A program made the position numbers and the translations under genes. The notes under the pieces are model-generated. The model saw nothing but the letters and a program-made list of their open reading frames with translations, did no database searches and was not told where the DNA came from. DNA of 64,000 nucleotides from the NCBI RefSeq assembly GCF_037975245.1, contig NC_092578.1:17135321-17199320 (forward strand). Reading direction: 5' to 3'. Within the stretch, counting starts at the first letter, position 1. The number at the start of each line of letters is the position of its first letter. This DNA comes from Apostichopus japonicus (Eukaryota; Echinodermata; Holothuroidea; Aspidochirotida; Stichopodidae). Shown in pieces: positions 4,604 to 48,604 of the stretch.

Positions 4604-4674
4604 GTAAGATATTTTTAAGTTAATTTGTAGAGAATATCGTAAATTCCGAATAAAATGTTGAAAGATTATACGCC

Positions 4675-16928: not shown

Positions 16929-17329
<401 letters not shown>

Positions 17330-19228: not shown

Positions 19229-19855
19229 ATGGAGGAGTTAGGCCTACAAGCTGGTCATAATGGAACGGCGGATGATGGCGGCATCAACTTGGCGTATTTG
19301 GCCGCTGAGGTTTGCCTATCAATGACCGCTACGGCTAGCAATCTCATAGTCATCATAGCATTCTGTACCAACGGAAAACTTCGAACAATTCCCAACTGGT
19401 ACATCGCCTCTCTCTCCGTCAGTGATTTGTTAATGGGGGTATTCGGTATACCGTTCATACTAATAGCCCTAACCGGTAAACCGAAGAATAATTTCGGTTT
19501 GTGTATCAGTGCGGTTACCGTTATCGTCTGGGTAGAACTATGCTCATGTTTTACTCTTTTCGCTCTATCTTGCGATAGATATTACGCTGTCTGTAAACCC
19601 TTGGAATATACCACTCAAATGACACATAGACGTGTTCTATTACGGATTACGCTTGCATGGGTCACCCCTCTGCTCTACTCTCTACTTGTGCCGATTGTGT
19701 GGATTCACGACCGCACCGGTGGTGACGATAATTGTCTCTTCGTCGAAGTCTTCGATTTACGGTGTATGATGGTAGCATATCTGGGATTCTTTTTGCCTTT
19801 GTACGGGATCATGTGTTTCATGTACTACAAGATATTCCAGGCAATTCGTAAACAG
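19229..19855 (+). CDS. Adenosine-receptor-like GPCR 1, exon 1 (TM1-TM5)
   Basis: Encodes residues 1-209 of a class A seven-helix receptor. Seen: N-glycosylation site NGT at residue 11, Asn1.50 (N38), Asp2.50 (D66), Cys3.25 (C92), DRY at 116-118, Trp4.50 (W144), ECL2 Cys169 followed by Leu-Phe, and Pro5.50 (P190). Position 3.32 is Ile, not Asp, which argues against an amine receptor; position 3.36 is Glu103. The ECL2 Cys-Leu-Phe and the IFQAIRKQ end of TM5 resemble adenosine receptors. The ATG at 19229 has A at -3 and G at +4. The exon ends in phase 0 at CAG before GTATGT; without splicing the frame would stop about 90 nt later. The partner exon is 24170-25240; a paralog sits at 44022-48604. 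Confidence 0.92.
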
Positions 19856-20045
19856 GTATGTGTAATTAAAGTTAGTAAACACCCAACTTGCTTTTATTCC
19901 TTCTTACAAGAGGACGTGGTGTTTGTGTCAAAAAGTACACGATAGAATTACTCCAACGTTTCAGCAAAGAGCATAGGCCTATATCTCTTTCTTTTGATTC
20001 CTTAAAATGATAAATTATTAGATTTATTAGATTTTATACAGTTAT

Positions 20046-20190
20046 TTATTCCCCAAAACAGTTTTCAAAATTACTTTCGTGGTGGTGGGGAGGAGGGGGT
20101 ACGACAGATGATAGGGGGTGGATACGATGATACGAGTTGGTACGGGGAGGAGGGGGGGGGGGTACGACAGATGATAATACTTGGAGGGAA
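20046..20190. repeat. G-rich duplicated phrase in GPCR 1 intron
   Basis: GGTACGACAGATGATA occurs twice (about 20098 and 20161) within GGGGAGGAGG-rich sequence, a short local duplication. The minus-strand proline-rich frames here have no domain. Confidence 0.6.
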
Positions 20191-20872
20191 GATTCTAAAT
20201 AACAGCAATTGATGAGAAGGTAAGCCCAAATTGTCATACCAGTTTGCAAAATTTACAACTGTACCCTTTGAAAGCAGTTTTGGGATACTGTGCTTGAGAT
20301 ATTCATAATTCTCTGGAAAAAAATACAACATTTTATAATTATTGACATTAACTGTGCAAGATACTCTCTCTTGCACTCTGAAGACATCAAGCGATATGTA
20401 ACTACGTCATATGGTGCTTCCTTTTCTAGTCTCTCTCAACAGGTTATCTAAAACTAAGTGCGAAAAGTGACGTTGACAGATTACGTTGAATGTCGCCTAT
20501 CCCCTCGTTGTTAACAATTCCGTGCAACGTTTGATATGTAATCAAACTTTGATTATTTTGATATCCTATACGCGATAAGGCCTTTCCACCTAAATTAAAC
20601 GATGCTGTATTTTTATTGGTCTGTTTCTTTCACTCGCCACGCGACAGACTGATTACGTATGACGTCGATTTGCTTTTAGGAGTTAGTGGGTGGAAAAAGG
20701 GAGCGGCGGTTGGGAAGGGGGAGGGGTGGGGAGGGGTGAGCACACCCATGCAGGTAGATCTACTTTCCAGGTGAGAACGAATTCTAGACACGGGAGTATA
20801 TGATACTAAATCAAGCAAGTAGACAGGTGATATAACTCACACTGATAAGTATAGAGTGTCTAGCCGGCGGAG

Positions 20873-21123
20873 TGTATAGCTGGCGGAGTGTATAACCTAG
20901 TGGTTAACGCCGGCGTCTCCCAGTCATGAGATCCCCGGTTCGATTCCCCGCCGACAGCAATGTGTGTCGTCTCGCAAGGGTGTTGTTCAATATCAACTTC
21001 CCGACATGGACGTTAAATGAATGTGTGCCGAGAGATTGGCTTCGGTCAGCTTGCGAGTCTATAAGCCTCCATGGCTTCTTTCGTGAGTTCCTGCTTGCGG
21101 GAAGATCACATATACATACATAG
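20873..21123 (+). mobile_element. tRNA-derived SINE, family 2, copy 1
   Basis: Box A TAACCTAGTGG at 20892-20902 and box B GGTTCGATTCC at 20937-20947 form a tRNA-like head. The body contains GACGTTAAATGAATGT, CTTCGGTCAGCTTGCG and ATGGCTTCTTTCGTGAGTTC, followed by a short (ATAC)n tail. An inverse copy at 34756-34999 has the same order of blocks. It lies inside the GPCR 1 intron. Confidence 0.8.
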
Positions 21124-21533
21124 AGCTACACAGTATAGAGCTATACAGTATAAAGCTATACAGTATATGAAACGTGATGGGGGTCACGCGGAATGTGGAG
21201 TTAGACACCCCCCCCCCACCCACCCACTCCTACTCCTCAACCCGATATCCATAAGTACATCATCGACACAACAGTAAAGAAAAGAAAGGAAAAGCAGGGC
21301 GGCAAAATCATGAAAATAACCAAGTTTAATATTAATTGTCACAGTTTTAAACGAACGTTATAATATGAAACGTTTAACAACTTTTTTCTTACAGGGATCT
21401 CTTGTACACAATACCTCACTGTTCACAACCTATAGAGTCCTTACATCTTTTTTTTACAGCTAATGAATTGAATTTTAAACCTTTTTAAATGAAATCATGT
21501 CCAGCAAATTTAAACATCGTAGAATATATTGTA

Positions 21534-22046
21534 GGCTTGTATTGCGAAACATACACAACAGAGGCATATTGTTCTATTGATTTAGCATATACTGTTTACA
21601 CAGCTCAATAGCGTAAATAGACGGTAACTAGGTTATTTCAATAGTATGGAAAATGTTAAAACGCCGTTGCATGCAGTGTTCAAATATCACCAAATACAGT
21701 GAAGTAATGTTTGATAAAACACACTTACTGAATGTAATACATTGTTGACAAGGTTTGTAATCGCTATAATATTAAACTTATTAATTAATTAATCATTTAC
21801 ATTGGTTCATTATTTAAATAAATAACCATTAGTCATTTTTGACACTAAAGGCACTAAAAAGTCATCAAAATTCGTCACTATGAACTTGTCAAATACATAT
21901 AACGGCGATTTAACATACTTTCCCATACTATTGAAGTAACCTGGTTACCGTCTTTTTACGCTATTAAGCTGTGTAAACAGTATAATGGTATGCTATATCA
22001 ATATATTAATATAGCTTTGTCGTATATGTTTCGCAATACAAGCCCT
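21534..22046. mobile_element. Foldback element with ~135-bp inverted arms
   Basis: The left arm starts GGCTTGTATTGCGAAACATA and the right arm ends TATGTTTCGCAATACAAGCC. The arms also pair through ACTGTTTACACAGCT, ATAGCGTAAA, GACGGTAAC and TTCAATAGTATGG, enclosing about 230 bp. There is no transposase frame. A further GGTATTGCGAAACATATA fragment lies at 22094. MITE/foldback class, family unknown. Confidence 0.8.
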
Positions 22047-22083
22047 CCTTCTGTTCTGATATATATATATATATATATATATA
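22047..22083. repeat. (TA)n microsatellite beside foldback element
   Basis: Short TA run between the right end of the foldback element and a second fragment of its end. Confidence 0.85.
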
Positions 22084-22667
22084 CAGAGCAGGAGGAGGGC
22101 TGGTATTGCGAAACATATATAAATATGCCGTTTCATGCTAAAGTTACGCAAGAGTCTGTAATTAGTTCAGGTTAACCGTCCAGTAACCGGATCAAGATTG
22201 TCTTTTGAGAAAAATAGGATGTTTGCAATATGCGTGTAGGTGTTTGAATCAATGTGCATGTTCTTGAACTTGTTGATGATGTTGTTTTTTGTTGTCCACT
22301 ATAGTTCAGTCTCTTAGGGCAAAAATTGCCTCTAAGTGACGCCATCCCTACAGTCAAATCGTTCTTTTAATCAATCATTCTATGCAAAGAGAATCGAGGG
22401 AATGAAAGCCTTTCACCAAGAACCTCGTAAATTGAAAACCACTCAGTTCAGGAAATTGAGTTGAATCTAGCAACCACTAATATCCAAAGGGTCAGTGTGA
22501 ATTCTTTATCAGATTTCACAGCATCAGTCCCTTCTTGGAATCTAATCTCATTGGAATGGGAGTCTCTTCAAACCGCAGACTGCTGCAAATGTACATTATG
22601 TATCATAAAAAAACATCCTATAGCTGTAAGGAAATACGCATTTATGAAATGGGGAACGTGCAGAAAT

Positions 22668-22811
<144 letters not shown>

Positions 22812-23203
22812 TAACTGACACTCTTATCAGTCTTCATGAACAAACCTATGGAAACTAAGAGAAACCACATAAGTAGTACATTCACAGTTTTGCTTTTCTT
22901 TTTTCTTTCTTTCTTAAAAGAAACCAAACCAAACCCTAGACATTGGAACACTTGTAAAGTATGTATCGTTCTCCAAATTACTCTGAAAATATTGCAAACT
23001 GTGCATTCCCCAGGATAAAACACAATTGACAGGTTTCACTTTACAAAGTAAATAAATGGTGCATTTAGAGAAAGGCTGGATCTCGAGTGAGATACAATAA
23101 TTAAATAAGGTAAGTGATTGGAAGTAGTACAGCCAATCTTTGGTTTTTGAAGAGCTTTCGAGCAAAACTAGCTCTTCTTCAGTGCATGATCACCGAAAGT
23201 GTG

Positions 23204-23223
23204 TATATTTATATATATATATA

Positions 23224-23286
<63 letters not shown>
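23204..23286. repeat. (TA)n microsatellite joined to SINE copy 3
   Basis: TA array ending exactly where the family 1 SINE fragment starts. Confidence 0.93.
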
Positions 23287-23290
<4 letters not shown>

Positions 23291-23424
23291 CCAGAGGTTC
23301 GAAACCGGTAAAGAAGGTCGTAATTCCACTGTAGGCGTTTGTCACCGTATCGAACAATACTATATAGTTCTGTTTTTGGTGACATATTTTGCCTTAATCT
23401 AGAAATCAAACATGATGCTAACCA
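23287..23424 (-). mobile_element. tRNA-derived SINE, family 1, truncated copy 3
   Basis: Matches 17057-17195 of copy 2 nearly base for base (CCAGAGGTTCGAAACCGGTA, GTAGGCGTTTGTCACC, GGTGACATATTTTGCCTTA). The tRNA-like promoter half is missing and (TA)n replaces it. Confidence 0.75.
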
Positions 23425-24169
23425 TATCTAGAAAGAACATTGATAAAGGCAAAGTGAAATCGCATCAAAATTGAAACTAACTTGAAAAGGTCTACCTAAA
23501 ATGTCAATGGGGTACTTAACGTATAAGAGCATCAGTAATTCCATGTCACTATTACTAGTAATGGACAAGCAATGTTATAAATACCTTTTACCAGATGCTA
23601 TCGGTCGCATTATTCTATAGCTTCTCTTTGAATTGGTTGTATCAATTCCTGCATTCTTTTTTCAAGAGAACAACAGTTGAAGATAATACATTTCTTTTAC
23701 CCAAAGTCATCCTAAAGCAGAGAAATGTGACGTCATAGTTACACACTGAAAAATCGTAAAGATTTTTTATTTTTTTTAATGAAAATTGGAAAAATTTGGA
23801 TGCCCATTTTTTTTTCGTTGAGAAAACACATTTTGTCAATATGTATCTCTGATATCACAACTGTCTGCTTCAAGCTGATCTTTGGTTTCACAATACATTA
23901 TATTCAACTACTGTTCTTTTTTCAACACATTCAAGATGTGTTTCTCTCTGCCCCTCGTTATTTCTCCTAGCCGGGATCCTCGTTGTCGTACTCCCATTCC
24001 ACCCCCCCCCCCCATACCGGGATTATCCTGCAGTAAAGTGTTGAAGAAGAAGAAGACATAAATATGCTATCATGATTGGCTTCATATTATCTTCAAAATT
24101 TTATCTTTTATCGAGGCTAACAACTTAATAACTTCACTGTTTTCTTTTCCTGTCTTTTCTCTTTTGCAG

Positions 24170-25240
24170 TTAAAACGTCTTTCTCAGATACAGGAAGTGG
24201 GGATTCGTTTGCGCCATTCATCCCATGGTTCTGCGACCAAGTTGACTAGAATATCCCCGAACGCAACGACACAGTCTACGCCTGTTGGACGATTCATGCG
24301 TGACAGCCCTAGGCTACACTGTAGACATATATGTAAACCACATATTAATAATGTAGATGGAGAAACACCTCCTCCTCCTCCTGGAACAACGGAAAGTGAC
24401 GTAAAAAGCGTATTAATGATACCTAACAAAGGAAGCGAAAATGATAGCCAACAACAGTCTGAATATGATCTGAAACAAGGAAGCCAAAATTCTACAAAAT
24501 TGTGCTTCAAAAGAAATATGGTTCAGTTACAAAGATCTAACAGCTTTCCTATACTTCGCGATACGACAGTACCGAAGCACCGGTTATCAACATGTTTTTG
24601 TAAAGGTAAAGAAACAATGTATTCGAAAGTGAAAGAAGCACTGGAGAATAACAATCAACTATCAAAACCAATTCAGCTTCATGAATATTCAAAAGATGGG
24701 TCGGCATATTCAAATAATATGCCTGAATATTCAAAAGATGAGCCTGAATATTCAAAACAAGGACATAAACGTTCAAAAGATGAAGAAGGTTGTCCTTACC
24801 ATCGTAAACCAACGGATCAAGAACTGAAAGACAACGAAACGGTGAAAAGTGTTGATTCGATGAATGAAATTGGAGAAAAATCGACCAATTCGACCCCAAA
24901 ATCGGTAAATCAAGTACAAAGTAATCGATACAGACAGGAAAGAAAAACCGCGACTCTTTTTGTTTTCATATTATTGTTTTTCTTTGTTTCTTGGTCACCA
25001 GTTTACATCGTGGATATATTTTTAGCTTACGATGTTAAAGTCAATCAAGCTTTAGTGAATTTCGCCGTGTTGTTGTCCCATTTCAATAGTGCTTTCAACC
25101 CGATACTTTATGCTTATAAAAAGGAGTTTAGAAAAACCTTGTTTGGATGGGTACGATCTTTCCATAGTTTTCTGCAGTCTAATTGTAAAAACAGACGAAA
25201 TCAGAGTAATCAAGTTTACCCGTATACTGTCAATTCGTGA
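24170..25240 (+). CDS. Adenosine-receptor-like GPCR 1, exon 2 (ICL3, TM6-TM7, tail)
   Basis: Continues in phase 0 after CTTTTGCAG with LKRLSQIQEVGIRL. A very long third intracellular loop follows (about 255 residues), hydrophilic, Ser/Lys-rich and with four EYSKD-like repeats. TM6 starts after RQERKTA and carries Trp6.48 and Pro6.50 (SWSP) with Asp6.55. TM7 reads LLSHFNSAFNPILY with Ser7.42, His7.43 and the NPxxY motif. Ser-His at 7.42-7.43 is the adenosine-receptor ribose-contact pair. The whole protein is about 565 aa, much longer than typical adenosine receptors because of the loop. It acts presumably at the plasma membrane through G proteins; the ligand is not proven. Confidence 0.92.
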   Translation, partial: LKRLSQIQEVGIRLRHSSHGSATKLTRISPNATTQSTPVGRFMRDSPRLHCRHICKPHINNVDGETPPPPPGTTESDVKSVLMIPNKGSENDSQQQSEYDLKQGSQNSTKLCFKRNMVQLQRSNSFPILRDTTVPKHRLSTCFCKGKETMYSKVKEALENNNQLSKPIQLHEYSKDGSAYSNNMPEYSKDEPEYSKQGHKRSKDEEGCPYHRKPTDQELKDNETVKSVDSMNEIGEKSTNSTPKSVNQVQSNRYRQERKTATLFVFILLFFFVSWSPVYIVDIFLAYDVKVNQALVNFAVLLSHFNSAFNPILYAYKKEFRKTLFGWVRSFHSFLQSNCKNRRNQSNQVYPYTVNS

Positions 25241-27900
25241 GGAATAGAATTAATTATCAAATTGTTTATAGTATGACGTAATCTACCGCGTGTACTTGTA
25301 GTGGTGGTGGTATATTGTGCCAAAGTGTATAATACTGACCAATATAGCGACAAATTATATGTATATAAGTAACACTTTTTTTTGTATTGTATATTCTTGT
25401 GAGATAAACTCTTTGTGATCTTCGTTACCTTACCTGATAGTGATATATTATACTTGACGTTTTAATAATAAATAAACAGTGTAAATCGAAGGTGACTTTA
25501 GGTTAGTTCAACTATAAGTATTAATTTGTGGAAGAAACTTTACTTGATAGCTCTGTTCAAAGATTGCAATGTTAAACAGTTTTATATATGTTTGTCGTGA
25601 ACGCAATGTCGTCAAGGTATACTGATACTCATGTAGTCAAAACGCACAAAACAGTTTTTAATCACCTTCTACCCATCAACTAGTCACAACTGATAATCTC
25701 CAGTTTCCCTCCTTTTTATACTTCAATGTTCAGGATACAAAACCCCAATCATGTTCTTGCTGATAATGCCATTTCGTGTATCTTAGCAACGGGATAAAGC
25801 TTTCACGACGATTCACTTGACAAATCAGATTGCAGGGTTTTAAATATTTCGCTGTATTTATTAACTTCTTGAAATTGTTACCTCCTTTTTTTGTTCTTTT
25901 CGTTTTATCAAAAGGTTTAATCTTAATTCTATCATCCTTCGAGCAGATTCGATTCACATTAAAGTAAAAGATTTTGATTTTCATGTAGGTAACTTTTCAT
26001 TTCGTAAACGACCAAAAAAAAAAGCTGTACCACCAATATATAATGTCTGTTGTATCTTAGAAAAATTGTATCTAAGAAAAATTGTAAAGAATAGTTTATG
26101 AAAGAGAACAAGATAATTTTCATAAGCATTTCTAGGCATGCGCAGTCAATGTTTAATGACGTAAGTTACCTTACATGCTGTTTTAATGACTTACTTGAAC
26201 AGTAGTTTACGTGATGAGAGAAATGCCTTGTACAAACGCACAACTTAAATGATATTATTTCAACTTTTCTATCAAACGTGACATTTGATTAAGAAAGCAC
26301 ACGAATTCGTGCTCACATTTCAGAACTTAATAAAAACAAAGTACTTAATAATAATGACTAAAAATATGACCAGATAAATGATTTTACGATTTGATATTTA
26401 TGAAGTGATTTATGTTTCTGCCACTGCAAACTGGAACGAAGAAAGATTATTATTATTAACATATGCAACTTTAAGGGAAAACTTTGCCATTTTCTTCTCA
26501 AATGTTATTGGATAAAAAACATAGCAGCAGACGTAGGAATCTGCACTTTTGCCAAGTTCACCAAAAAGGTTTGTTAAAAAAAAAAATAATTAAGAATATA
26601 AAAATATAATAAGAACACTTTACGATCATTGCCATTAATGTTACATATTAATTGCATTAGTTTCAATCGAGATGGTTTTATGCTTTTTAAAAAGGAAACC
26701 AAAACAGACAGAAGAGGGAAGTAGGAAGAGGAGGAGGAGGGATTGGGGTTGGGGATTGGGAGGGGGTAGGGCGATGCAGGACACGGTTTAACACAAAAGC
26801 CTTTATAGTAATCCATGAGTTTAATTTCAATCGTTTCATTTGTTCACCATATAAAGGACTAAACTCATTCATACAGTGATCGCCATCTAAAGGATCCCAA
26901 TGATCCTAAAAGGATATATAGCCTACCTAAATCAGTGTATGTTAATATTTCTACGGTTATTCTAATTGTTAATGTTAAACTTCATTCACACTCAACATGG
27001 TTTTTCGCCCATTATAACTTCATATTTCTCGCCTACGTTATGAGAGTTTATTACACCGAACGGAGTATTGAGCTAATTCAGTTAAAAGCAAAATATAAGG
27101 GGGGGGGGGTGTATTTGTATGTGTGTGTATGTGCGTGTGTTTGTGAGAAGGGGATGGGAAGGGTGTTTCGATGTAAGGTGAGGCTGTGTGTGTGTGGGTG
27201 TGAGTGTGGGTGGTTCAGTGAAACAAAGGGCTAATTGTGTGTGCGTGTGTGTGCAGTGCAGTGCAGAAGGGAAGGTGGATTCATTGTAAAGAGAGGTTGT
27301 TAACATTTGTGTATGTGTATGGAAGGGGTGGGGTGGGGGGTCCGGAATGCGTTTTAGCATGACTGAGCCAATGCTTTACAGTATTTTCACGGGGTACAAG
27401 GTAGATTTCCAATAGTTAAGTATTTGATATTACTTTCATGCATGGTACATGTGCCTCGCATATGAACATTCGTAGTTACGCGAATTGCTCAAATAAAACA
27501 CGTTTTTGTTTTCTGTAATTACATGTGCAATCTTCCATTCATTCATTTCTGTTTAAACAACCCACACGACATATGGTATCAGTGCAATGTAGACATATAT
27601 ACTGTATCAAGTGAATTGAACGAAAAACGACGAAAACATGGAAGCCAACCTACCGTCACGTTTCTCGACAGGGTTAAAACAAAATTTTTTAAATTTTCTG
27701 CCTCTAACGTGAACCGTTATACTTTACGGTTTTCTAACTGATATCCTAAGATATTAAGGGGCAAAACAAGTTATGAAAAGAGTGTAGTCACAATCACCAA
27801 TACATATATTGTATGCAATATCAATATTGAAAAGAGGTAAACACAGCTGGTTGTTTTCCGTGAAGGAATTTAAAACTACTTGTTTACTCTTTGATATCTC
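25241..27900. other. Intergenic, no gene recognised
   Basis: The 3' flank of GPCR 1, then AT-rich DNA. A GGAGG/GGGATTGGG purine tract lies at 26716-26770 and a TG-rich tract at 27110-27345. No coding exon seen on either strand. Confidence 0.5.
25467..25476 (+). promoter_or_regulatory. Candidate poly(A) signals of GPCR 1
   Basis: Two overlapping AATAAA hexamers about 230 nt after the stop codon, in AT-rich 3' flank. Plausible but not unique in such sequence. Confidence 0.4.
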
Positions 27901-27990
27901 ATTCCGTTTGACAGTTTCCATGTGGGACCCTGGCATGTGTATTCACTACTGTATTAGTGTCACAACTCTCTGGTATGACACAAGTATGCG

Positions 27991-28157
27991 CGCTGTGTCC
28001 ATGACACAGCGGGCATGCGCGCTAACTGGGTCCGTGTCTAAGCTCCCTGGGTGACATTTTGTATAGACCGACTCTTCCTTGTCACAGCCGCTCTGATGCG
28101 ACATGTTATGCGTACAATATGTTTGTCCGTGTCACAGTTTATGAGCGTGACACGGAC
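27991..28157. repeat. Two GTGTCA hairpins
   Basis: CGCTGTGTC / GACACAGCG (27991-28011, 3-base loop) and GTCCGTGTCA / TGACACGGAC (28125-28134 and 28148-28157, 13-base loop) are perfect stems. GTGTCA or TGACAC phrases recur between 27955 and 28190. No gene assigned. Confidence 0.7.
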
Positions 28158-28248
28158 ACCCAGGATGAATGAGTCCGTGCCACACGACACGTATCGTCTG
28201 TTCCGTATTCGACCACGACCACGTAGTAGTGTAAAGGGAACTTCATTA

Positions 28249-28441
28249 TGGAACGCGAAAGGGCAACCATATTTCGTTGTCTAAACTAAGTTTGTTGTTG
28301 TCTAAACTAAAGTTGTTGCTGCTGTTTTACCATGCTGTTGCTCAAACTCACATTGATGTCTAAAATTCCGTTGTCTAAACTTACGTCGTTGTCTAAACTT
28401 ACGTTAATCTTAGCGACGAAATAATCCCTTTTCGCGTTCCA
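28249..28441. mobile_element. TA-flanked MITE with TGGAACGCGAAA ends
   Basis: Inverted ends TGGAACGCGAAAGGG and CCCTTTTCGCGTTCCA, each bordered by TA, as for Tc1/mariner-type insertion. The interior repeats GTTGTCTAAACT several times. CTTCAT occurs just outside both ends. No coding frame. Confidence 0.7.
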
Positions 28442-28450
28442 TACTTCATA

Positions 28451-28650
28451 GAGCCAGCTGGGACAATTTCCTTAATGCTTATACCTCCATAAACTGTACT
28501 CCAATATCATGCTCTTAAAGCACTGGTATTGTCAGTATAAACAGTTCCAAACCTTGATCTGATACATAAACATGATATTCATACTGCTCGTACTGACAAT
28601 GTGAGTGACATAACACTACAGTATATAGAAAACATTGTCCCAACTGGTAG
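28451..28650. mobile_element. MITE with CAGYTGGGACAAT ends, copy A
   Basis: Left end CAGCTGGGACAATTT at 28455 and right end ATTGTCCCAACTG ending at 28646. The direct repeats CTTCATA at 28444-28450 and 28651-28657 could be a 7-bp target duplication. Copy B lies at 37571-37736 in inverse orientation. Confidence 0.72.
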
Positions 28651-28657
28651 CTTCATA

Positions 28658-29690
28658 TAACAATTTCATGCATACTCATATCGAGTAAATTATTTTGCTT
28701 TAATCCTTTCAAGTTAATGGTGGATGTTGAATTTGTCTCGTCATTGCTATGTGTTTACTGACGGTTGTTCGAACAGTATGTGTGTGTTCAAAAAAGACCG
28801 CAAATAACATAATATATATACAAATATTGACATAAGCCTAGTTCAACACCTGATTCTCTGGTTCCATGTACTGTTTGAAGAGAAATCGCCCACGCAAGAA
28901 TATAAGCACGGAAACTATGCAAATAGCTTGATCCACTTTCACCCTCAAGACCCCCTTGTTAATGTGCCACATAGAGACTGTAACCACGTGATCATCATTT
29001 TGACGACGTTACGTCTATAGTGAGAAATCACGAGTCATTTCGAAAGGGAGTAGATACCGCGCATGCTCATACATGTAAACAACATAATTATTGTATCTCG
29101 CTTTCGTTTAACTTTGGCGTCATACTTCTGGAGGACTCGTTCCTCTATGGACGATGTTAATTATGATATTCAGCCCCGTTAAATTGTCATGCATACAGAC
29201 AATGTCTATGTATACCGTACATTACCCCGGTAAGTAGCTAATTGGGAGCAAGGCGTATTTTAGTCTAGATGTATACGTTGCCAGCGCATGCTCAAATGTA
29301 GAATTCATGATAGAGAGGGAAGAAAAATCAAATTATAACATAACCGGTTGCCTGTAAATTAGCATATATGTAATGCAAGTAACAGGTTCTATTGGCAAAA
29401 CACTCTATTTACCTCCCAACCAGGTATGTTCCCCTTTAAAACAACATACATATTCCAACAGAAGTCACTCTATATGTTAGGTTGCATGAAGTAGGTTAAT
29501 TGAAGTAAACGTATGCTTATATGAGGGAAATGTCGCGTGGCTTTGCACCCCCCCCCCCCAGTCAGGTTACCTCTAGATCCCACCATAACAAGTATCGCCC
29601 TCCCTATACGATTGGCTCTAAACGGTTTTTTTTTATTCGTGTAGGGTCTGGTGGTATCGTACTCAAACCGTTAAAGGGATATTTCGGTGT
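28658..29690. other. Intergenic, no gene recognised
   Basis: AT-rich, with a C-run near 29550. No coding signal seen. Confidence 0.5.
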
Positions 29691-29878
29691 GTGAACGTAA
29701 GTGGGCCTGACGTTTCGATCCTATAGCAGGATCTTCTTCAGAGGCTGGATTAGTGTTCAAGCCTCTGAAGAAGCTCCTGCTAGGATCGAAACGCCAAGCC
29801 CACTTATTTTTACACATTCTCTATACAAAGGTTCTTTATTGCATAAGCAGTTTGCTAACAGTTTTATTTAATTTGGGG
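29691..29878. mobile_element. Palindrome-headed retroposon-like repeat, copy 2, with target duplication
   Basis: An 11-bp direct repeat TATTTCGGTGT occurs immediately left (29680-29690) and right (29879-29889). Inside, the long palindrome has arms GTGGGCCTGACGTTTCGATC and GATCGAAACGCCAAGCCCAC, and a tail ends AACAGTTTTATTTAA. An 11-bp duplication plus shared 3' tails among copies suggests retroposition rather than DNA transposition. Confidence 0.72.
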
Positions 29879-29889
29879 TATTTCGGTGT

Positions 29890-32690: not shown

Positions 32691-32722
32691 CCTCCCCCCC
32701 CCTCTCTCTCTCTCTCTCTCTT
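32655..32722. repeat. (ATCC)n and (CT)n simple repeats
   Basis: ATCC tetramers, then a C-rich segment and a CT run. Confidence 0.85.
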
Positions 32723-34999: not shown

Positions 35000-36701
<1,702 letters not shown>

Positions 36702-37570
36702 TTTGTGTGTTTTTTCTCTCTCTCATACTTATCGTAAATTCATAATGTTCCGTAACAACCACCGTAATATTAAGGTTGAATTTCCGCATATTAAACTCGG
36801 TCGTTTGATTCAAAAGTATGAACATCTATTTATACAAGACTATGGTGATCAAAAAAAATGATGAAGTGGGTGGGGGTGGTCTTTATTTGAGCAAATATTG
36901 CAATCTTTTGTCTTGTTTTTTTTTTTTGGCAAATAGATTAAGGTAAGAAAGGTATACAATTACGCGATGATACGCCTAAAGAATATATTTGTGTTATTTG
37001 TCTTCTATTAAAACGTTTCCATAGTAACCAACCTCATCATCAAGTGTTTCTCGTCAATATGTTGTTATTTTTTTTTATAACAATTTACATTCACTTTATC
37101 ATTTTGTTTATTTTTAGCCCTATATATGGTCATTAAGTGTGCTATATGTGAATCACGTGTGGTTTTGTATTAACTATAAAAAAATTAAAAAATATGAGCG
37201 TTGAAAAAAATAATGATATTCATTAAAACAGGACTACCGCCAATTTAAAAAAAAAAAGATTAGTTTTTGACCACTCGAAAATAGTTTCCTCATGTTTTGA
37301 TCATTAAAAAAATACAAGCAAACCGGAAATTTACATTGGGTATAGCTTAGAAAAAACACCCAAACTAAGAGGACAAAAAAAAAGACATTGAAAAGAACAG
37401 AACAACACAAGACTAAAGCAAGACATGGCAAGACAACATATTTAACAAGGAAATGTTGACAATTTGATTTCTGTACAGCTGTAAAGAACGTATGCATATG
37501 CATATGCATTATCAATATGCATAAGAAAGAAATTTGTTTGAATATTCAGGATTACTTTTGAAATTCCACC

Positions 37571-37736
37571 CAGTTGGGACAATTTTTTCTATACTGTAGT
37601 ACTATGTCCCGCTTCAGAGCACTCGTAGTGTCAGTATGAATATTATGTTTCTATCAGATCGAGGTGAGGAACTGTTTGTACTGTCAATACCAGTGCTTTG
37701 AGAGCATGATATTGGCATAGGAAATTTTCCCAACTG
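37571..37736. mobile_element. MITE with CAGYTGGGACAAT ends, copy B
   Basis: Ends CAGTTGGGACAATTTT and GAAATTTTCCCAACTG. The interior matches copy A (28451-28650) in reverse complement: AGCACT, GTCAGTATGAATAT, ATCAGATC, CTGTCAATACCAGTGCTTT, GAGCATGATATTGG. TGAAATTC occurs at 37559 and 37735, close to both ends. Confidence 0.75.
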
Positions 37737-37779
37737 AAATTCAAAGTTCTTGTTTCTTATCTTTCTTTTCAGAATAAAT

Positions 37780-37781
<2 letters not shown>

Positions 37782-37847
<66 letters not shown>
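37782..37847. repeat. (TA)n microsatellite
   Basis: TA run directly after ACAT, about 45 bp from the right end of MITE copy B. Confidence 0.93.
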
Positions 37848-37848
<1 letters not shown>

Positions 37849-40800
37849 GAATGAAAGAAAGAAAGAAAATTATCACACTACGGCAATTTCGATACGTGTC
37901 TAAACGAAATAACAGTCAAAAGGAAAGGGGGTCAATGGCGTGCTTCTCTATTTTCAATGAAATTAATCATTCTTTTCATATAGTAGAACCATAGTAACGT
38001 ACACGACATCCGCTAAAGTTATATGTTGAAGCAACAAAAAAAAAAAAAAAAACTTAATTTACCTCCGTGAGATAAAGACATGTCTTCACGTTTTTAGTCG
38101 TTCCTCTTTCACAACGTGAGTTCTTTGTTATTGACAAATTGTTTGCTATAATTTTCCCGTAAATATTTAATATTGGAAAATAATTCAATTCTCTTGCGTA
38201 TGACCTATCTGTTAAATAAACAAAGATTTTAAAAAAGTAAAAAGTAATCGAATGTTTCCATCAATCTTTGTTTTGTGAACAGTTGGCTATAAATAACATT
38301 ATGATAGATTGTTACTTTTTTGGACCTAGTTATTTGGGTTAGGAAGTATTGCATTTCCTCACGTACTATAACTATTGACTTTCTCCAAGTACGTGAATGT
38401 TGTTAAAGGAACACGATATTTATCTAGACGTATATATTTTAATATAATGATTCCCAAAAGGAAAAACATGTTTTTAACAATCAGATTCCAATATACCTGA
38501 ATGCAAGTATATACTTGACCATATCCCCTGGCAAAACTAGAATACTCCGCAGTAGTCTTTTTGGTCACCCCATATGTAGCCTAACTTGCAATCGCATTCA
38601 TGTAATAACAAAACCTGATATTATACATTTATATATCGTCTGCACCGATAATGTGTTTGTGTAAATGTGATAACTACATACTTTTTGCTTTCATGGCTTT
38701 AGGCAGAATGTTAGTCTTGTTAAGTCATAGTCCCAAGAAATAAGAACACTTTTGGAGGCAAGTATCGTTTTATTGAAGCTGTTCCGGTTTTCAAGATATT
38801 ACTTTTAAAATATGCTGCACCTCTAGACTGCTCCTTTAATGGTAAATTCAGGATATAACTTCGGCTCCCAAAGTATACATATCTAAATGTTAATGTTGAA
38901 CCATCATTTTATAAATTCTAATAATTCAATCAAAACATGTTTTTTTGTGATCATATGGACAAACAGAGCACCCTTGGATGACCTTCAACACCATTTGTTC
39001 TGGACCGATTTGTAATACATTGTAAACGTCTTAAATGAGGCTACGAATCTCTTGTTTTCCCCATTGAGGCATGTGTTGCATCTGAAGAACTGACACAATA
39101 GTCTCTGTGTTAGACTAAACAGTTCAGTCACTTTCATTGATGAGCCTTAGATATTTTTAAAGGGTCATTCCTAAAAAAAGTAAATAAATAAAAAATAAAA
39201 GTAGTATGGGTGTACAACCTGGACTATACTAGCAGTGTTTATTTAGCGGTCTACCATGATATTAAAATAATGATTAAAAAACGTCATATTTTAAGAACGT
39301 TTAAAAATTCCTTCTTTATATATACAGGAGATCCAAGTTTATTGGAACGTAGAACTGATCGAATCTGTCAGTGGTCTCTCTGTAGTTATTATTTTATTTT
39401 ATTTTTTGGACATGATCATAAAAATAAAACTTTCTGTAGACAAATTATTTAAATATTATAAAGATAAAAAACAAACAAATTTTCCGATCATTAATGTCTT
39501 GGTGACATCAATTGACATGTTATGTTGCCAGATTTGTTCACAAAATATCACCAAAATAGAAAAATATAAAATAAAACAAAATAAAAGGTGCTATTTGAAT
39601 GTGGTTTGCCATTAAGATGCAGACAGTTTTCTGAATATACAATATCCCTTTAAAGCTGAGCTTCTAAATATTGAAACCTATTTTCTCTTACCAATGCCTG
39701 TAATATCTTCCATTTAATCACGCTTGCCCTACAAAACCACTTAAATCTAAGATATATTTGCTTTCGAGTACAATTTTCTTTTGATAATATTGCAATCAAT
39801 TAATAGAAACGGATGAAACGTTTAGTCTATCTTTTTTTTGGAAACATGATTATAATGACGGTAAATAATTAATTAGTTGCCGATTCATGAAAACACTTTT
39901 GAATTCATAGTTTTCAAAACTTAATAGCTTCATACCAAAAACATCGACATCGCCAAATTTTTTATTTTATTTACTCTTTTCAAAAAAAAATTCTGTGCCG
40001 TCTTTTCTAAAAGCAGATAAAAGTGTTTGAAAAAAATATTTCCGCTGAGCAAACGTCTGACCATGAGATATATTGTTTTGTCTTTTATTCGGTGTCTCAT
40101 GCAAATGGTTAAAACCCTTTTTTCATCTAAAGTAAGTGCGTGTAGGCATTTTGTCAATAAGAAGGTATACATCAATATTCTTTGTATGACTAGTCTAAAA
40201 AAAAAGGTTGCCATGGGTAATAATCATTTTGTTATTGAACGCAAAAATCAGTTTGAAATAGAAAAATATATATAATAAATAATACGTATCGCTAAAGCTT
40301 TGTTTGTATTCCGTTGGTTGTTCTATTTTTATTTACTACCAAATAAAAATATTAAAAGGCTGTTAAATCTTAAAATGAGAAACCATAACAAGAACATCTA
40401 TTCGTAGGAATTCGAAATCGGGTACTCAAAACAAAAAGAGGGGGGGGGGGGGGTCCGGTAACCTCGACGCGGACCTCGACATCCAAGTCGGGCCCCACAG
40501 AGAATTTAGTCAACAGTCCCTTTTTGAATCTTCGAAATTACATGGTCATTATTCTTTATATACATTGCTCGGGCCCTCCTTAAATGACCCGTGTTCCCCC
40601 TCACCCACCCCTCCCCCCCCCCGCAACCCATTCGTCGTCGTGCGCCTTGGTCAGATATGACGGGTATTTTAATGGCATATCCTATTATTCCTTTTTTTAA
40701 TTATCAAATTGCCATCACGTATGCGCCATTTTCTTAAAGTGAAAACCAACAGCGTTGGCTATTAATTTAACTGGGAGTAGATCAACTTTGTACGAATATC

Positions 40801-41465
40801 GTTAAAACATGACAGTTTCCATGTTAAGACTCCGGGCTTTTCGTAACGAAAAACACATTTCATCTGTTACTTTTATTAGCTAGCGTCCAGCTTGACGTTA
40901 TATTGCTGAGATGTTGTCCAAATTTCTTCACTATACAAGAATTCCCCGACGTTTCTATGCTATACTTGAAGATGATATTGAAAGATAACCGAATCCACGT
41001 AACACTTCCTAAGCCAATCAGAACGTCGCGTTTGCAAAATTTCTTTGATCTTCCGCAGCTAATAGGCTGTGGTTATACATTATTTTTAATATTAAATTAA
41101 TTTCTAACCTTAGCAACGTTTCATATGGATTCCAACCATTTTTTATTTTAAGACCAAGGTTCAAAGTCCCTCACCTTTCGCTTGATATAATGATGCAGAG
41201 GTATAGGTTTATTTTTGCTGGAAAAATAGAGGACATTTTATTGTAAGTCTCTTAGGTTAAAACTTGTACAGCGTGTCAAATTTTGTAACGAAAATTAATT
41301 TGATGTTAACACTGTTTATCTCCTACCTCTCCTCTTCCCCTGTTGGTTTTTTTTCTTCTCTCCATCCCTTGTCTACTAATCCTCTTACATCTATCTCATT
41401 GTGTTCACCATGCTCATTAACCTGTCTGTATTCTGTGCGTGTTTTTGTCCTTTCTGTTACTGTTA
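37848..41465. other. Intergenic, no gene recognised
   Basis: AT-rich with A-runs, a 14-base G run at 40440-40453 and C runs near 40613. Short open frames carry no domain. Confidence 0.5.
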
Positions 41466-41467
41466 CT

Positions 41468-41590
41468 TGTCATTTAGCCTTTGAAGAAGATCCTGCTAGG
41501 ATCGAAACGTCAGGCCAACTTACTTTTACATATTATCTACACATGCAGGCTCTTTAGTGGATAAACATTTTGATAACAGTTTTATTTTAT
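41468..41590. mobile_element. Palindrome-headed repeat, truncated copy 3
   Basis: Starts inside the second arm (CTTTGAAGAAGATCCTGC), then ATCGAAACGTCAGGCCAACT and the common tail ending AACAGTTTTATTTTATTT. The first arm is missing, as in a 5'-truncated retroposon. Confidence 0.7.
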
Positions 41591-42340
41591 TTTGATGTTA
41601 ACAGGTAAGAAGTGAGATATGCACAAAGTTTGATATGCTCCTCATTATTTTTCACTCTTTTGATATTTTGGGGGAGGCTTTATGTCCAAAATTTCAGCTT
41701 ACACAATAGCAATACACATGAGCGTTTTCTGATTCAGTTCAATCCATTTTTAAGGTAGAAAATTGAATTTAAACAAAGGGGAAGGGGACTTTCTTTTGGG
41801 TAGTTTTCCATTTATGGTATCAAACTTGTTCACTTTTGGAACAAACAACAAAAATAATACATTCAAATGGCTTCACTTCATGTAAAATAGGCTCAATGCT
41901 TAAGATGGTGGGGTGGGGAGGAAGGGGAAGGAGGGGTCATGGCCCCCACCTCCATCGACAGTCAGGAACAAAACGATAAGCCCGAAGATAATTATAAATA
42001 CATTCATTGAAGAATTAGACAATTCCTCCGGTCCTGTCCGCTCTCGACCTGTTTCGCTCACAATACGCTGTACGTATACTATATGAACCATGCATATACA
42101 ACCTATACGATATGCTGCATTATACAACACCTAATGGTATTCTGGTCATTTGATTGGTCAATTGCTCGTTGATTGCATGCAAAATCCGCTCTATTCCACT
42201 CTATTAAATAGAACCATGGGTTATACTTTTTTGGTAGCACTTTTTTTCAATGGTAAGAGAGCAGAGAAACCTGTCTGTTCAAAACAATCTATTGTATGAG
42301 TGCATTTTACTCATCTTAATGTAATATGTTGTATAAAACA

Positions 42341-42492
42341 AATAATGAATGGTTTCCATTCGTGCAATAGTGCAAATATTTCATTCGTTGAAAGATGTAA
42401 TTTGTTCCATTCAACGAGGCGCAGCCGAGTTGAATGGAACATATTACATCTTTCAACGAACGAAATATTTGCACTCATAACCATTCATTATT
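42341..42492. mobile_element. Foldback element, ~65-bp arms
   Basis: AATAATGAATGGTT at the left end and AACCATTCATTATT at the right. The arms pair through AGTGCAAATATTTC, TTCGTTGAAAGATGTAAT and GTTCCATTCAAC around GAGGCGCAGCCGAG. The left arm carries a ~14-base insertion (TCCATTCGTGCAAT). Confidence 0.82.
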
Positions 42493-43027
42493 AGTATACT
42501 ATACTTTGCATTAATATTGCACACAACTAACTTGCACGGACTATACATGCAGTCTATATTTAGCACTCGCCAATACATGACACAATGACAATGCTAGTAT
42601 TGTAAAGTTAAGTTTCATATTTCATTTTATGCTTTATATTTCGAGCTGGCAAGCCGGTAAGTAATGCTAAATAAACAGAGTTTCAACGCAATATTGCCGT
42701 AAAACTCAAGTACTTCTATTTTTGGCGAAATTTCCTATTGAAATGTTAATATAGCATTGTAAATAACCATTCTTGCACTTTCCATTTTTACTAAGTAGTT
42801 ACTCAAAAAAGAAACTTAATTGCAAGGTTTGACCAAAGACTTTTCGCTGAATAGAGAGATATAAGGCGGTAAACAAAACAAAAGCATTCATTAATTAATA
42901 ACTTATTTATGAGTTTGTATAGGCAGCTAAATTTAAACAAGTTTAATGATCACAATAATGACTTTGTATTAATATTCAGCTGTCTGAAAGTGCAGCGACT
43001 AACAATAATTAATCAGCAGTCATCAAT

Positions 43028-43912
<885 letters not shown>

Positions 43913-44021
43913 TTTCGACATATACGGCGGTCATGAACAGATGCAGAAAACTATTGGACTGACCAATAGGCCTGTCCATACTCACTCGCAGGAGAGTATA
44001 CTGAGATGTGAACTAAGCAAG

Positions 44022-44633
44022 ATGAATTTAACAACATCTAGCGATGCCGTTACTGGGGAATCGGTAATCACAACCTATTTCATTTGCGAACTTTTGATCG
44101 CTCTCTTCGCAGTAGTAGGCAATTCTTCGATCATAGCTGCTTTCGCTATGAACCGTAGGCTTCGGACCATTCAGAATTACTATATCGTGTCTCTAGCAGC
44201 GATTGATTTCTCGATGGGGTTTTTCGCTATTCCGTTCGTGTTGCTTACATTGGATGGTCAAAGAGTCCAACGGATGGGGATATGTTTCTTCTTACTTACG
44301 GTGATTGTACTGATGGATCTTTGTTCGATATTTTCGATTTGGGCGCTGACCTTTGACCGTTTTTACGCCGTCTGTCGACCGTTTAGTTACCACGCTGTTA
44401 TGACCCGCAAGAGAACGATAATACACATCGCTGCCGCTTGGTTAATTCCTATAGCTATCTCTTCACTGGTTCCGTTAGGATGGAATATAGCGGATGAAAA
44501 CACCGTGGATTGTTTATTCCCGCTTATCGTCAGCATGCAATACTACGCTGTTCTATATTTCTTCTGTTTTCTACCATTATTTTTCGTGATGTGTTTGATG
44601 TACAGACGAATCTTCACAGTCATTCAAAAACAG
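44022..44633 (+). CDS. Adenosine-receptor-like GPCR 2, exon 1 (TM1-TM5)
   Basis: Encodes 204 residues ending IFTVIQKQ before donor GTTAGT, phase 0, the same splice position as GPCR 1. Seen: glycosylation site NLT at residue 2, Asn1.50 (N34), Asp2.50 (D62), Cys3.25 (C88), Asp3.36 (D99), DRF instead of DRY (112-114), Trp4.50 (W140), ECL2 Cys164-Leu-Phe and Pro5.50 (P185). I chose the ATG at 44022 because A at -3 gives a good context and MNLTTSS is a typical receptor start. An in-frame ATG at 43941 would add 27 residues. Position 3.32 is Ile, so it is not a classic amine receptor. Confidence 0.92.
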
Positions 44634-44738
44634 GTTAGTGAAATGCTCTTTTAGCCTTCTCTCTTCCCCTATCCCCCCTCCCTTTCCTCCTCCCCCTCAC
44701 CACCTTTTTATCCTTCACTATCCCCTAGCCCCTACCCT

Positions 44739-44832
44739 TTCTCCTTCTTCTCCTCCTCCTCCTCCTCCTCCTCCTCCTCCTCCTCCTCCTCCTCCTAATC
44801 CTCCTAATCCTCCTCCTCCTCCTCCTCCTCAC
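44739..44832. repeat. (CTC)n microsatellite near GPCR 2 donor
   Basis: About 90 bp of CTC/TCC with two CTAAT interruptions, 100 bp inside the intron, followed by a G run at 44846-44858. The two tracts are partly complementary (C-rich and G-rich). Confidence 0.92.
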
Positions 44833-45842
44833 CACCTGTTCTTCGGGGGGGGGGGGGGCTGTGGCCTTAGGTAACTAAAGATACGTCGCTACTTTTGGAG
44901 TTCGGTAACAAAATACACCGCGTGTATGATCCTACATCCTCATAAAATGCCAACTTTGAATCAGGGCTATAACATGTCCGAACATCTCTCCCCTCAATCA
45001 GTGACCCCACTCCCCCCCCCCCCCACCACATCCCCTTCGTCAGTCATACAATCAACTTGAAAACTTTCCCCTCACAATTACACGCAGTAAACCACCTTCC
45101 CCTACCTCGTTTCCTCGCTGTGATGGGTACAGTATTGGATTTGATCTGTTTAGTGGGTGCAAGGATTTCAAGTTTGAGTTGAAGATAGCAATAACAATGA
45201 AATTGAAAAAGGTTCACAGTTGAGAAATATAGCATGTGGTACTGTCGTACAAAAAGGTCCTATATGTCCACTACAAAGTCAATGAATTTTTATCACCATG
45301 TGAAATCGTAGTTTCCATATGGAAAGACAATAGACTAAGACAATATAATAAAGACAATAGAATAAGGGATCTAAGCATTCAGTGCAGGCTCGAGTCCTGG
45401 CAAGAGCATTAAAGTTATGTCCAGTGACCACGTATATGTGGTACACTGTAGTCGATGGTTGCCGTGCCCCGGGGAACGACATTTTGAATTATGAAGATTT
45501 AGGTGTGTGGGTGTGACGGAGTTATCAATGACCGGGGGGGGGGGTAGTTCTTGTCAAGTATCAATTATAATTTAAGAAATAGGACAATCCCGCCAAAATT
45601 CCGAACTGTACGTTTTAAGAATTCTTTCGTTTATAGGGCTGCCATATTTATTCAGGGTGTTGTTCCACAAAACCTTCTTTAATTCATTTATTAACTTTTG
45701 ATTTATTATTTGTACATATAGTATACATGCTATTTTAAGCTTTATAACTCTTAACTGATTTTCAAATCCTATTTATAAATATGTACTTTTTGACTTTATA
45801 CTTGATTTTTAATTAACTTCTATCCAAACTTCTGATATGAAA

Positions 45843-46365
45843 ATATGTTACTAGCACATTGATAGCACACTAGATAAATGTGTGCTAGTGACACTATGGA
45901 GTAAAAAAGTTCTTGTACTATGTTATTGGCCCATTAATAACACACTGGATAACCTTGTGCAAGTGACACTATCTAGGAAACCATTCTTGTAATATGTTAT
46001 TAGCCAATTGATAACACACTAGATAACTGTGTGCAAGTGACAATATCAAGGAAAAATATTCTTGTAATATGTTATTGGCCCATTGATAAAACACTAGATA
46101 ACTGTGTGCCAAGTGACACTATTAAGTAAAAAAAGTTCTTGTTATATATTATTGGCCCATTTATTAACACACTATGATAACTGTGTGCTAGCGGCACTAT
46201 CAAGCCCAAAAATATGTTCTTGTAATATGTTATTTGGCCCATTGATAACACACTATACAATTACGCTCTAGTGACACTATCAAGTGTAAATATTCTTGTT
46301 ATATGTTAATTGGCCCATTGATAAAACTAGAATACAGTGTGCAAGTGACACTATTAAAACAAACT
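45843..46365. repeat. ~73-bp minisatellite in GPCR 2 intron
   Basis: Seven diverged units built on TTCTTGTAATATGTTATTGG, CCCATTGATAACACACTAGA and TAACTGTGTGCAAGTGACAC. Each unit contains the near-inverted pair ACACACTAGATAA/GTGTGC. Confidence 0.88.
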
Positions 46366-47791
46366 AATGCAATGTGTCATTTTATAAGTAAAGCCCGACG
46401 GTAATGTACTTACATTCGGAATCAAATTTATTCTTTCCAACGATGACACAAACATAAGATCGAATACTAAGTAAACACGTGAGTATCACGTGCCTGCACG
46501 TAAATTGTCTCAACTTTTGATGAACCGTCTGAATGTCGTTTTCACCTCATCTACTTTCATTAATGATTGATAGAGTAATATCCTATCATTGAAATATACA
46601 ACCTAAGTGGAGAAGTCTAAACTAGAATTGGCCTCAACAAATCATTGGTTTGTAGGACTTCACCAGAATTTATTAAAATGTCAATCAAATATATTTTGTT
46701 CATTAAGAAAAAAAAAATCTATTGATTATTAACACTTATCGCGTATAATGAAGAAGGAAAAAGTCATCAACTTATTCTCTTTCTATCTATATTTTCTACC
46801 ATAAATTATTTTCAAAGAAAAAAATTAATTACAAAACAGAAGTAGTTTTCCCCTTAAAGATGATATATTAAGGCTTTAAAGTAGACATCGCAAAGGTAAA
46901 GATTTTTTTTTTTTTTTTTTTGTAATGGATAAATTTCAAGCATATTTTTACGTATCAAAACAGTCTTTTTTTTCTTCATTTAAATAACTGGCGAGTAAAA
47001 TTTTTGTTTAAAATATGCTTACAATAGATTCACGTCTAGTATGCTAGGAAAGTAATAAAACTGACACGTTTGGGTGGGGGGGGTGGGGTCGGATTCACCA
47101 ACAAAAGATAATTTATTATTAACAATTGAATATGCTCGCTGAGTGGGGTTGGATGGGGTGTTCGATTGGGTTAGGTGGTTGGGGATTGGGATGGATGGGC
47201 TGAGGTGGAATCGGGTTACTCTACATTGGAATTACGTAATTGTTTCGTGAATATTCCCTGATGTTTAAGTTAATGAATCTTTACAAGTGATTAACATTTT
47301 TGACAAATATGTTCTGACATAAAAACTGAGCCAACCATTTCAACGGAAAACTCCTGGAATAAAATGAAACAAAAACACACTTTACCAATCAACTTGAGGA
47401 AGATTTTCAACTTTCACCACTAACCTGAAATGGTGACACATGTGTGTATATACGCTGGTACGTTTGATTTTATTTGGCTGGAGAAGTTGAAGTCGTTGTA
47501 TTAACAGTGTTATCAGGATTATCCAGTTATCCCTTGTAATCCGCTACGTGATACAAACAAGAAAGGTTGTATTAGATTAATGAAAGTCAATTATTTTGTT
47601 TTATATTTGAATTGCAAATTCTTGGGAAAATTGTGGATTTTATCTCTCTTTCTGTTTCTTTATTTCTTTTTTTACGGTTTGAAAAACGTCTAGAGTCATT
47701 CGCCAATATTGTATGACCAAGTAAAACAATAAACTAGAAACGATTGTAAATGCCTTTTTAATTTTGTTATTATAATTATTATTTTTTACAG
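46366..47791. other. Remainder of GPCR 2 intron
   Basis: AT-rich with a T-run at 46903-46921 and a G-rich degenerate GGGTTGGATGGGG tract at 47070-47215. No nested gene seen. Confidence 0.5.
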
Positions 47792-48604
47792 CTCAGCAGT
47801 TTAGCCCAAATCCAAGCAATCGGTATTCGACTTAACAACCCATCAATCAATAATATGAAAGATGATGATGATTGTCATGATGATGGTGGTAGTGGTGGTG
47901 GAGAGGACAGAGGACAAATGAATGAACAAACAAAAGAAGATGACAATAGACCAGGGTTCGAATCAAAGCACAAAAGAAGGGAATCGAAGAGGAACAGAAG
48001 AGACTGGGACGTGACAGATGAAATCCTCTTATTGAAGAAGATAAAGGAAAATAATCCGGAAGGTAACATAACAACTGTATCTGGTCTAAACCGTAGCAAT
48101 GAAAACAACCTCTCAAAGAATTGTCTTAAGATGCGCGCGTCTAAAACCGATGCGCGCGTCGATGAAAAAGAAAGGACGCCGTTAGAAGTTAACGTCGTAA
48201 ATAAAGAACATCATGAGCCACCACCGCCTGGCGTCCGTGACGAGACGACGTTTTTACGCTTTCATCGGATTAAACAAGAACGCAAAACGGCACTTCTCTT
48301 TGTGTTTATATTACTGTTTTTCTTTATTTCTTGGTCTCCAATCTATATCATTGACGTTTGTCTCGCTTTTGACGTTAACGTTAATCAAAATCTGGTCAAC
48401 TTTGCTGTCCTGCTCTCCCATTTCAATAGCGCAGTCAATCCAATACTTTACGCATCGAAAAGTGAATTTCGCCGCATTTTCAAGAAATGGATTTTCGTCA
48501 TTAGCAACCGATTTTGTAAAGTTTGTTGTAAGAACAGGGTATCTGCGATGAACTTGGAGAATACAGCTGATGATTTTACACAAACATTTTCTCGATATAA
48601 TTGA
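47792..48604 (+). CDS. Adenosine-receptor-like GPCR 2, exon 2 (ICL3, TM6-TM7, tail)
   Basis: After TTTTTTACAG it reads LSSLAQIQAIGIRL, clearly homologous to the start of GPCR 1 exon 2. An ICL3 of about 160 residues follows, with an acidic Asp/Gly run and Lys/Arg-rich segments, unrelated in detail to the GPCR 1 loop. TM6-TM7 are about 80% identical to GPCR 1 by eye: KQERKTA, SWSP with Asp6.55, and LLSHFNSAVNPILY. The tail has Cys pairs (CKVCC) that could be palmitoylated. Total length is about 474 aa. TGA at 48602-48604. Confidence 0.92.
   Translation, partial: LSSLAQIQAIGIRLNNPSINNMKDDDDCHDDGGSGGGEDRGQMNEQTKEDDNRPGFESKHKRRESKRNRRDWDVTDEILLLKKIKENNPEGNITTVSGLNRSNENNLSKNCLKMRASKTDARVDEKERTPLEVNVVNKEHHEPPPPGVRDETTFLRFHRIKQERKTALLFVFILLFFFISWSPIYIIDVCLAFDVNVNQNLVNFAVLLSHFNSAVNPILYASKSEFRRIFKKWIFVISNRFCKVCCKNRVSAMNLENTADDFTQTFSRYN

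Follow-up and report, generated by a model that had tools for sequence, protein, structure and literature searches.

Among the closest described systems, the adenosine receptor A2A has described ligand contacts. N253 (position 6.55) and E169 of the second extracellular loop (ECL2) contact the adenine-like part of the ligand, and S277, H278 and T88 (3.36) contact the ribose side (PMC10430665). In that paper, S277 and H278 carry the numbers 7x41 and 7x42, which correspond to 7.42 and 7.43 here. In a published tree, the adenosine clade was sister to a clade including the monoamine receptors (PMC10244343), and therefore the neighbours of a deep branch here are just these two groups. A holothurian receptor survey assigned 8 genes of an earlier Apostichopus japonicus genome to the MECA group, which includes the adenosine receptors (PMC7042368). 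The window analysed here is a stretch of 64,000 nucleotides from the same species (contig NC_092578.1, 17,135,321 to 17,199,320), and the positions below are those of the window unless another sequence is named. Two class A receptor genes, R1 and R2, are arranged head to tail on the + strand within 19229-48604. Their pockets keep the ribose-side residues of adenosine receptors and carry acids at 3.36 and 6.55. The best explanation is that R1 and R2 are anciently duplicated, intact receptors, whose lineage probably arose next to that of the canonical adenosine receptors.

The pocket residues could be numbered without gaps. A hand count on the translations puts C3.25 and R3.50 exactly 25 residues apart in each receptor, and therefore the assignment of 3.36 involves no alignment choice. 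Position 6.55 lies five residues past P6.50, and 7.42-7.43 were placed gap-free from P7.50. Position 3.36 is Glu103 in R1 (GAA, 19535-19537) and Asp126 in R2 (GAT, 44316-44318); position 6.55 is Asp491 in R1 (GAT, 25013-25015) and Asp419 in R2 (GAC, 48353-48355); and 6.52 is Tyr in both. Ser7.42-His7.43 is Ser512-His513 in R1 (25076-25081) and is encoded at 48416-48421 in R2. The ECL2 Phe, which follows Cys-Leu, is Phe171 in R1 (19739-19741) and Phe193 in R2 (44517-44519). All of these residues, with the ECL2 Cys-Leu-Phe, had been proposed by a sequence-only reading of the stretch, and all of them stand. The same reading had named a misassignment of 3.36 and 6.55 as one of two possible grounds against it, and the 25-residue spacing and the fixed offset from P6.50 show that neither is misassigned. 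Glu1.39 can be added to its list (Glu27 in R1, 19307-19309; Glu50 in R2, 44088-44090), so that the ribose-side set E1.39, S/T7.42 and H7.43 is present in both receptors.

Comparison with A2A, A2B, A1, A3 and L029, a canonical adenosine receptor found in the same genome, showed further similarities. R1 and R2 share with these five the class A core, E1.39, the ECL2 Cys-x-Phe, S/T7.42, H7.43 and the sodium-site residues, the set D2.50/S3.39/W6.48/N7.45/N7.49 being intact in both. Unlike the adenosine receptors, they have Glu (R1) or Asp (R2) for T3.36, Asp for N6.55 and Tyr for H6.52 (Ser in the A3 row), whereas Thr3.36 and Asn6.55 are found in 5/5 of the adenosine receptors. N5.42 (Ser in the A3 row) is not retained either; the residue is Tyr in R1 and R2 as aligned, an assignment that depends on a gap, both proteins being one residue shorter between ECL2 and the fifth transmembrane helix (TM5). 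The site of A2A Glu169 in ECL2 is Val or Pro in R1 and R2, and it also varies in true adenosine receptors, with Met in L029 and Arg in the A3 row.

The same five adenosine receptors were used for a comparison by column, in which 201 of the 204 numbered columns were usable and three were dropped for gaps. In this plain count, 3.36 and 6.55 are the only columns at which each receptor of the pair has an acid and 0/5 adenosine receptors do. A base was gained in both at one column (6.31). The five adenosine receptors have 70 invariant columns, 31 of which are retained in both R1 and R2, and many other positions have changed. The two acid gains support a changed ligand because both sites are A2A ligand contacts and are invariant in the five adenosine receptors. 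Among 39 tabulated receptors, an acid at 3.36 or 6.55 was found in R1 and R2 only, the other 37 rows having neither. E1.39 and H7.43 were restricted in this table to the pair and the five adenosine receptors; the histamine H2 row does not span 1.39. This table includes 25 receptors of the same genome, and those among them other than the receptors named above are high-ranking search matches and not a random sample; L001 and L003-L007 enter the table only and are absent from the trees. Shared by one pair of receptors, the acids represent at most two ancestral events.

The canonical receptor L029 was found at C15:23935858-23936712 with the human A2A core as query. It is 51% identical to this query and has one open frame. 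Its pocket residues (E1.39, T3.36, Q3.37, N5.42, H6.52, N6.55, S7.42 and H7.43) identify it, by sequence, as a canonical adenosine receptor, and plain adenosine is therefore probably already served by a receptor in this genome. In the genome search with R2 as query, 138 of 451 first-look candidates were scored. Among these, the best match beyond R1 and R2 was L029 (35%, 150.7 bits), followed by the H2-like receptor L008 (99.7 bits) and then by matches of at most 79 bits. No third copy of the R1/R2 type was found elsewhere in the genome among the scored candidates, nor in the 264 kb formed by the window and 100 kb on either side.

Some other receptor-like sequences were also observed. The only further receptor-like match in the 264 kb is a weak one in L023 on C18, at window-relative 112786-113637 and 48.8-49.6 kb to the right of the window; it has 21-24% identity to R1, R2, A2A and H2, with H2 as its best match (4.5e-13). 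On C15, L030 (C15:23842200-23844200) shares 97% identity with L029 starting at residue 175, and stops lie upstream of this part. Half matches to the canonical adenosine receptor at C15:23709500-23709841 and C15:23775875-23776216 both begin at query residue 162. All three are truncated versions of the canonical gene and possibly represent repeated segmental copies. Clusters of class A receptors with single open frames are located at C3:29.46-29.76M, C12:18.02-18.05M and C8:3.56-3.72M in the same genome.

The relationship of R1 and R2 to known receptors was analysed with profile searches and trees. For a profile of R1 and R2 against the PDB sequences, the first 46 of the best 60 of 712 matches were A2B (149.7 bits), A2A, A3 and A1 constructs. 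The best non-adenosine match was H2 (126.1 bits), with one further A1 construct below it; the best construct of every adenosine type outranked all other PDB receptors among these 60. With R2 alone, adenosine constructs also filled the first 46 of the best 60 (580 matches). In a tree of 16 rows, the R1/R2 pair was placed beside four vertebrate adenosine receptors with a support of 94/91. The approximately unbiased test (p-AU) gave 0.0345 against grouping the pair with six amine receptors, and 0.0267 against placing it outside the adenosine and amine receptors. In a tree of 33 rows, the pair was sister (90/86) to a clade of L029 and four adenosine receptors, which itself had a support of 96/90; the pair did not fall inside the canonical adenosine clade. 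The members of the C3 and C12 clusters included in this tree fell outside the adenosine clade. The truncated copy L030 was excluded from all trees. These results suggest that the pair and the canonical adenosine receptors are probably sister groups.

Several points weigh against this placement and against the pocket reading built on it. R1 alone matched H2 first in the PDB (110.6 bits), with A3 next (108.4 bits). In the 33-row tree, holding R1 and R2 with L029 alone, inside the canonical clade, was not rejected (p-AU 0.268). A reduced tree was reconstructed without 15 pocket columns and without eight rows, mostly long-branched (RHO, MTNR1A, MC4R, S1PR1 and L041-L044). The adenosine grouping was still the best in this tree, but its support was 71/82, and neither the aminergic placement (p-AU 0.109) nor the placement outside the adenosine and amine receptors (p 0.107) was rejected. 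The receptors L034 and L040 of the same genome joined the neighbourhood of the pair in the reduced tree. The only invertebrate adenosine receptor in the trees is the genome's own L029, and ten of the sixteen reference/candidate rows are sequences entered by hand. The AlphaFold model of R2 exon 1 (the first exon of R1 being the second row) consists mostly of helices at a predicted local distance difference test score (pLDDT) of 51.4, and is not usable for the pocket.

The sequence-only reading had called both receptors adenosine-like, and had taken a tree position outside the adenosine group as a result that would speak against it. The PDB profile ranking, the occurrence of E1.39 and H7.43 and the 16-row and 33-row trees agree with this name; the position outside the canonical clade, the first match of R1 to H2 and the support left without the pocket columns do not. 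In the tree, the pair is sister to the adenosine group, neither inside it nor clearly away from it. The observed residues are thus confirmed, whereas the interpretation is partly supported: the pocket of R1 and R2 is adenosine-like, their descent probably is too, and their ligand is probably not adenosine.

Each receptor is encoded by two exons. The first exon of R1 (19229-19855) is an open reading frame (ORF) from the N-terminus to the end of TM5 (residues 1-209) with a GT donor at 19856; after an intron at 19856-24169, the second exon (24170-25240) encodes the long third intracellular loop, TM6, TM7, the C-terminal tail and the stop, giving a protein of 565 aa. In R2, the first exon (43941-44633; residues 1-231) likewise extends from the N-terminus to the end of TM5 and contains an additional in-frame ATG at 44022. 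Its intron (44634-47791) is followed by a second exon (47792-48604) with the same content as in R1, and the protein has 501 aa. Both introns are GT...AG and of phase 0, and they interrupt the coding sequence at the identical site just after TM5, between IxKQ and L...QIQ..GIRL. The Pfam domain 7tm_1 matched the core of the joined proteins with 7.6e-45 (R1) and 1.8e-43 (R2). The core motifs N1.50, D2.50, DR3.50, W6.48 and NP7.50 are present in both receptors, and the class A hallmarks that had been read from the sequence are borne out. The residues of the receptor machinery are D2.50, DRY or DRF, W6.48 and NPxxY. On these motifs, R1 and R2 are intact class A receptors.

Local alignment of R1 and R2 showed 92/228 identical residues (40%) in the part preceding the loop, and 62/97 (64%) in the part that starts shortly before TM6 and reaches into the tail. 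Of the 278 aligned core codons, 144 encode an identical residue, with proportions of nonsynonymous and synonymous differences of 0.33 (pN) and 0.83 (pS, saturated). Within the third loop, only 29 of 142 aligned residues are identical. R1 and R2 therefore look like old duplicates that still work, their core being restrained and their loop free. From the intron site to TM6, this loop has about 250 residues in R1 and 157 in R2, a length that the adenosine rows do not have. The loop and the intron after TM5 also distinguish the pair from L029, which has one open frame.

Our preferred reading, which we hold tentatively, is that R1 and R2 are old adenosine-receptor paralogues binding a different, amino-rich or cationic purine-like ligand rather than plain adenosine. 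A different cationic ligand can fairly be proposed because the two acids are located in a pocket that otherwise keeps its ribose-side residues: the canonical T3.36, H6.52 and N6.55 are replaced, while E1.39, the ECL2 Phe, S7.42 and H7.43 are retained. The ligand would stay beneath the ECL2 Phe and contact H7.43 and S7.42. Asp6.55 would recognise two hydrogen-bond donors or a cation, and not the mixed donor-acceptor edge of adenine that is read by Asn; Glu/Asp3.36, together with Tyr6.52, would grip an amine or another donor deep in the pocket. Donors or positive charge would then sit where adenosine offers its mixed edge and its 5'-OH. The signal might pass through the G protein face and the unusually long third loop. 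An unchanged L029 would render the loss of adenosine sensing in R1 and R2 tolerable. The candidate ligands include amino-substituted adenines, guanine-type bases, S-adenosyl compounds and amines. Guanosine, S-adenosylmethionine, pterins and polyamines were weighed, and the sequence alone favours none of them. For guanosine, a carboxylate might face the N1-H/2-NH2 edge, as Asp does in the NKxD motifs of GTPases.

R1 and R2 might also have remained adenosine receptors, which we consider unlikely. Asp6.55 would then accept the N6 amino group and Glu/Asp3.36 the 5'-OH, and affinity or pH dependence would be altered in degree only. The retention of S7.42, H7.43, E1.39 and the ECL2 Phe is consistent with such a pocket; however, Asn6.55 and Thr3.36 do not vary among the five adenosine receptors, the genome's own included, and a carboxylate is unable to donate to N7 as Asn does. 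The loss of the ECL2 Glu169 also counts against it, though this site varies in true adenosine receptors. More doubtful is the explanation that the acids are protonated, structural, or proton- or sodium-sensing, like Glu3.37 of rhodopsin, and irrelevant to ligand choice, in which case the pair may have weak constitutive activity or sense pH. Other class A receptors contain buried acids (Glu at 3.37 in the rhodopsin row), and Tyr6.52 could hydrogen-bond Glu/Asp3.36; but both shared acid gains are at known ligand contacts, and none occurs elsewhere in the 201 columns. Slightly less probable again is a side branch of the amine receptors, with E1.39/S7.42/H7.43 convergent or ancestral and Glu/Asp3.36 replacing the missing Asp3.32 in function: the shared class A core, the rank of H2 as best non-adenosine match of the profile and best single match of R1, the non-rejection of the aminergic placement without the pocket columns, and the sister position of adenosine and monoamine-containing clades in the published tree (PMC10244343) are in its favour, whereas Asp3.32 is replaced by Ile in both R1 and R2, the Gly or Cys 7.42 and aromatic 7.43 of the amine rows are missing, the 16-row tree rejects the grouping, and the best construct of each adenosine type stands above H2 in the profile search.

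The window also contains several other features. A 61-base unit forms a large tandem array at 7539-10678, the main array having about 47 copies, and spurious long ORFs result from it. A dispersed repeat is found at 366-737, 16969-17325 and 23284-23424, its copies being about 87-93% identical. The first two copies include tRNA-Cys(ACA)-like sequences, at 654-728 on the + strand and 16978-17052 on the - strand, and the repeat is perhaps a tRNA-derived short element. An ORF at 4280-4618 (+) has a match below the cut-off to a protein tyrosine kinase domain (PF07714, 0.00032), covering the C-terminal end of this domain. A partial cytochrome c domain (PF00034, 9.2e-06) is encoded by another ORF at 60245-60574 (-), which is probably one exon. 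The ORF at 49757-50239 (+) had no match in Pfam; by eye, it resembles the tail of the reverse transcriptase of a non-LTR retrotransposon.

The adenine-type ligands of echinoderm oocytes provide a further comparison. In starfish, 1-methyladenine acts at a receptor on the oocyte surface via a G protein, and this receptor was called unidentified in a 2020 review (PMC7072822). For holothuroids, the maturation substance and its receptor were both described as open; an amino-substituted adenine was once proposed as the substance, and 1-methyladenine itself was ineffective on holothuroid oocytes (PMC8388914). In the titles and abstract starts of the open-licence papers found on 1-methyladenine and on A. 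japonicus adenosine receptors, no such receptor gene was named. The likeness of R1 and R2 to these receptors is by candidate ligand only, namely a small adenine-type ligand at the oocyte surface; no receptor sequence was found to compare in these sources. Two extra carboxylates in an adenosine-type pocket are what one might expect for an amino-adenine receptor, although this link is speculative. It is very improbable, but conceivable, that the holothuroid maturation-inducing substance acts on R1 and/or R2 as its receptor at the oocyte surface; the ribose-side cradle would be kept for an amino-substituted adenine, whose extra amino groups would be read by the carboxylates at the two sites, 6.55 and 3.36. 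In that case, the R1/R2 lineage could include the starfish 1-methyladenine receptor as an orthologue.

If a different ligand is indeed bound, changes at the best-studied contacts of A2A would have redirected a nucleoside receptor to another ligand, and the unchanged paralogue in the same genome would be a natural control for R1 and R2. The interest would be higher if this ligand proved to be the oocyte signal. Both are named candidate genes in an economically valued animal (PMC10344927).

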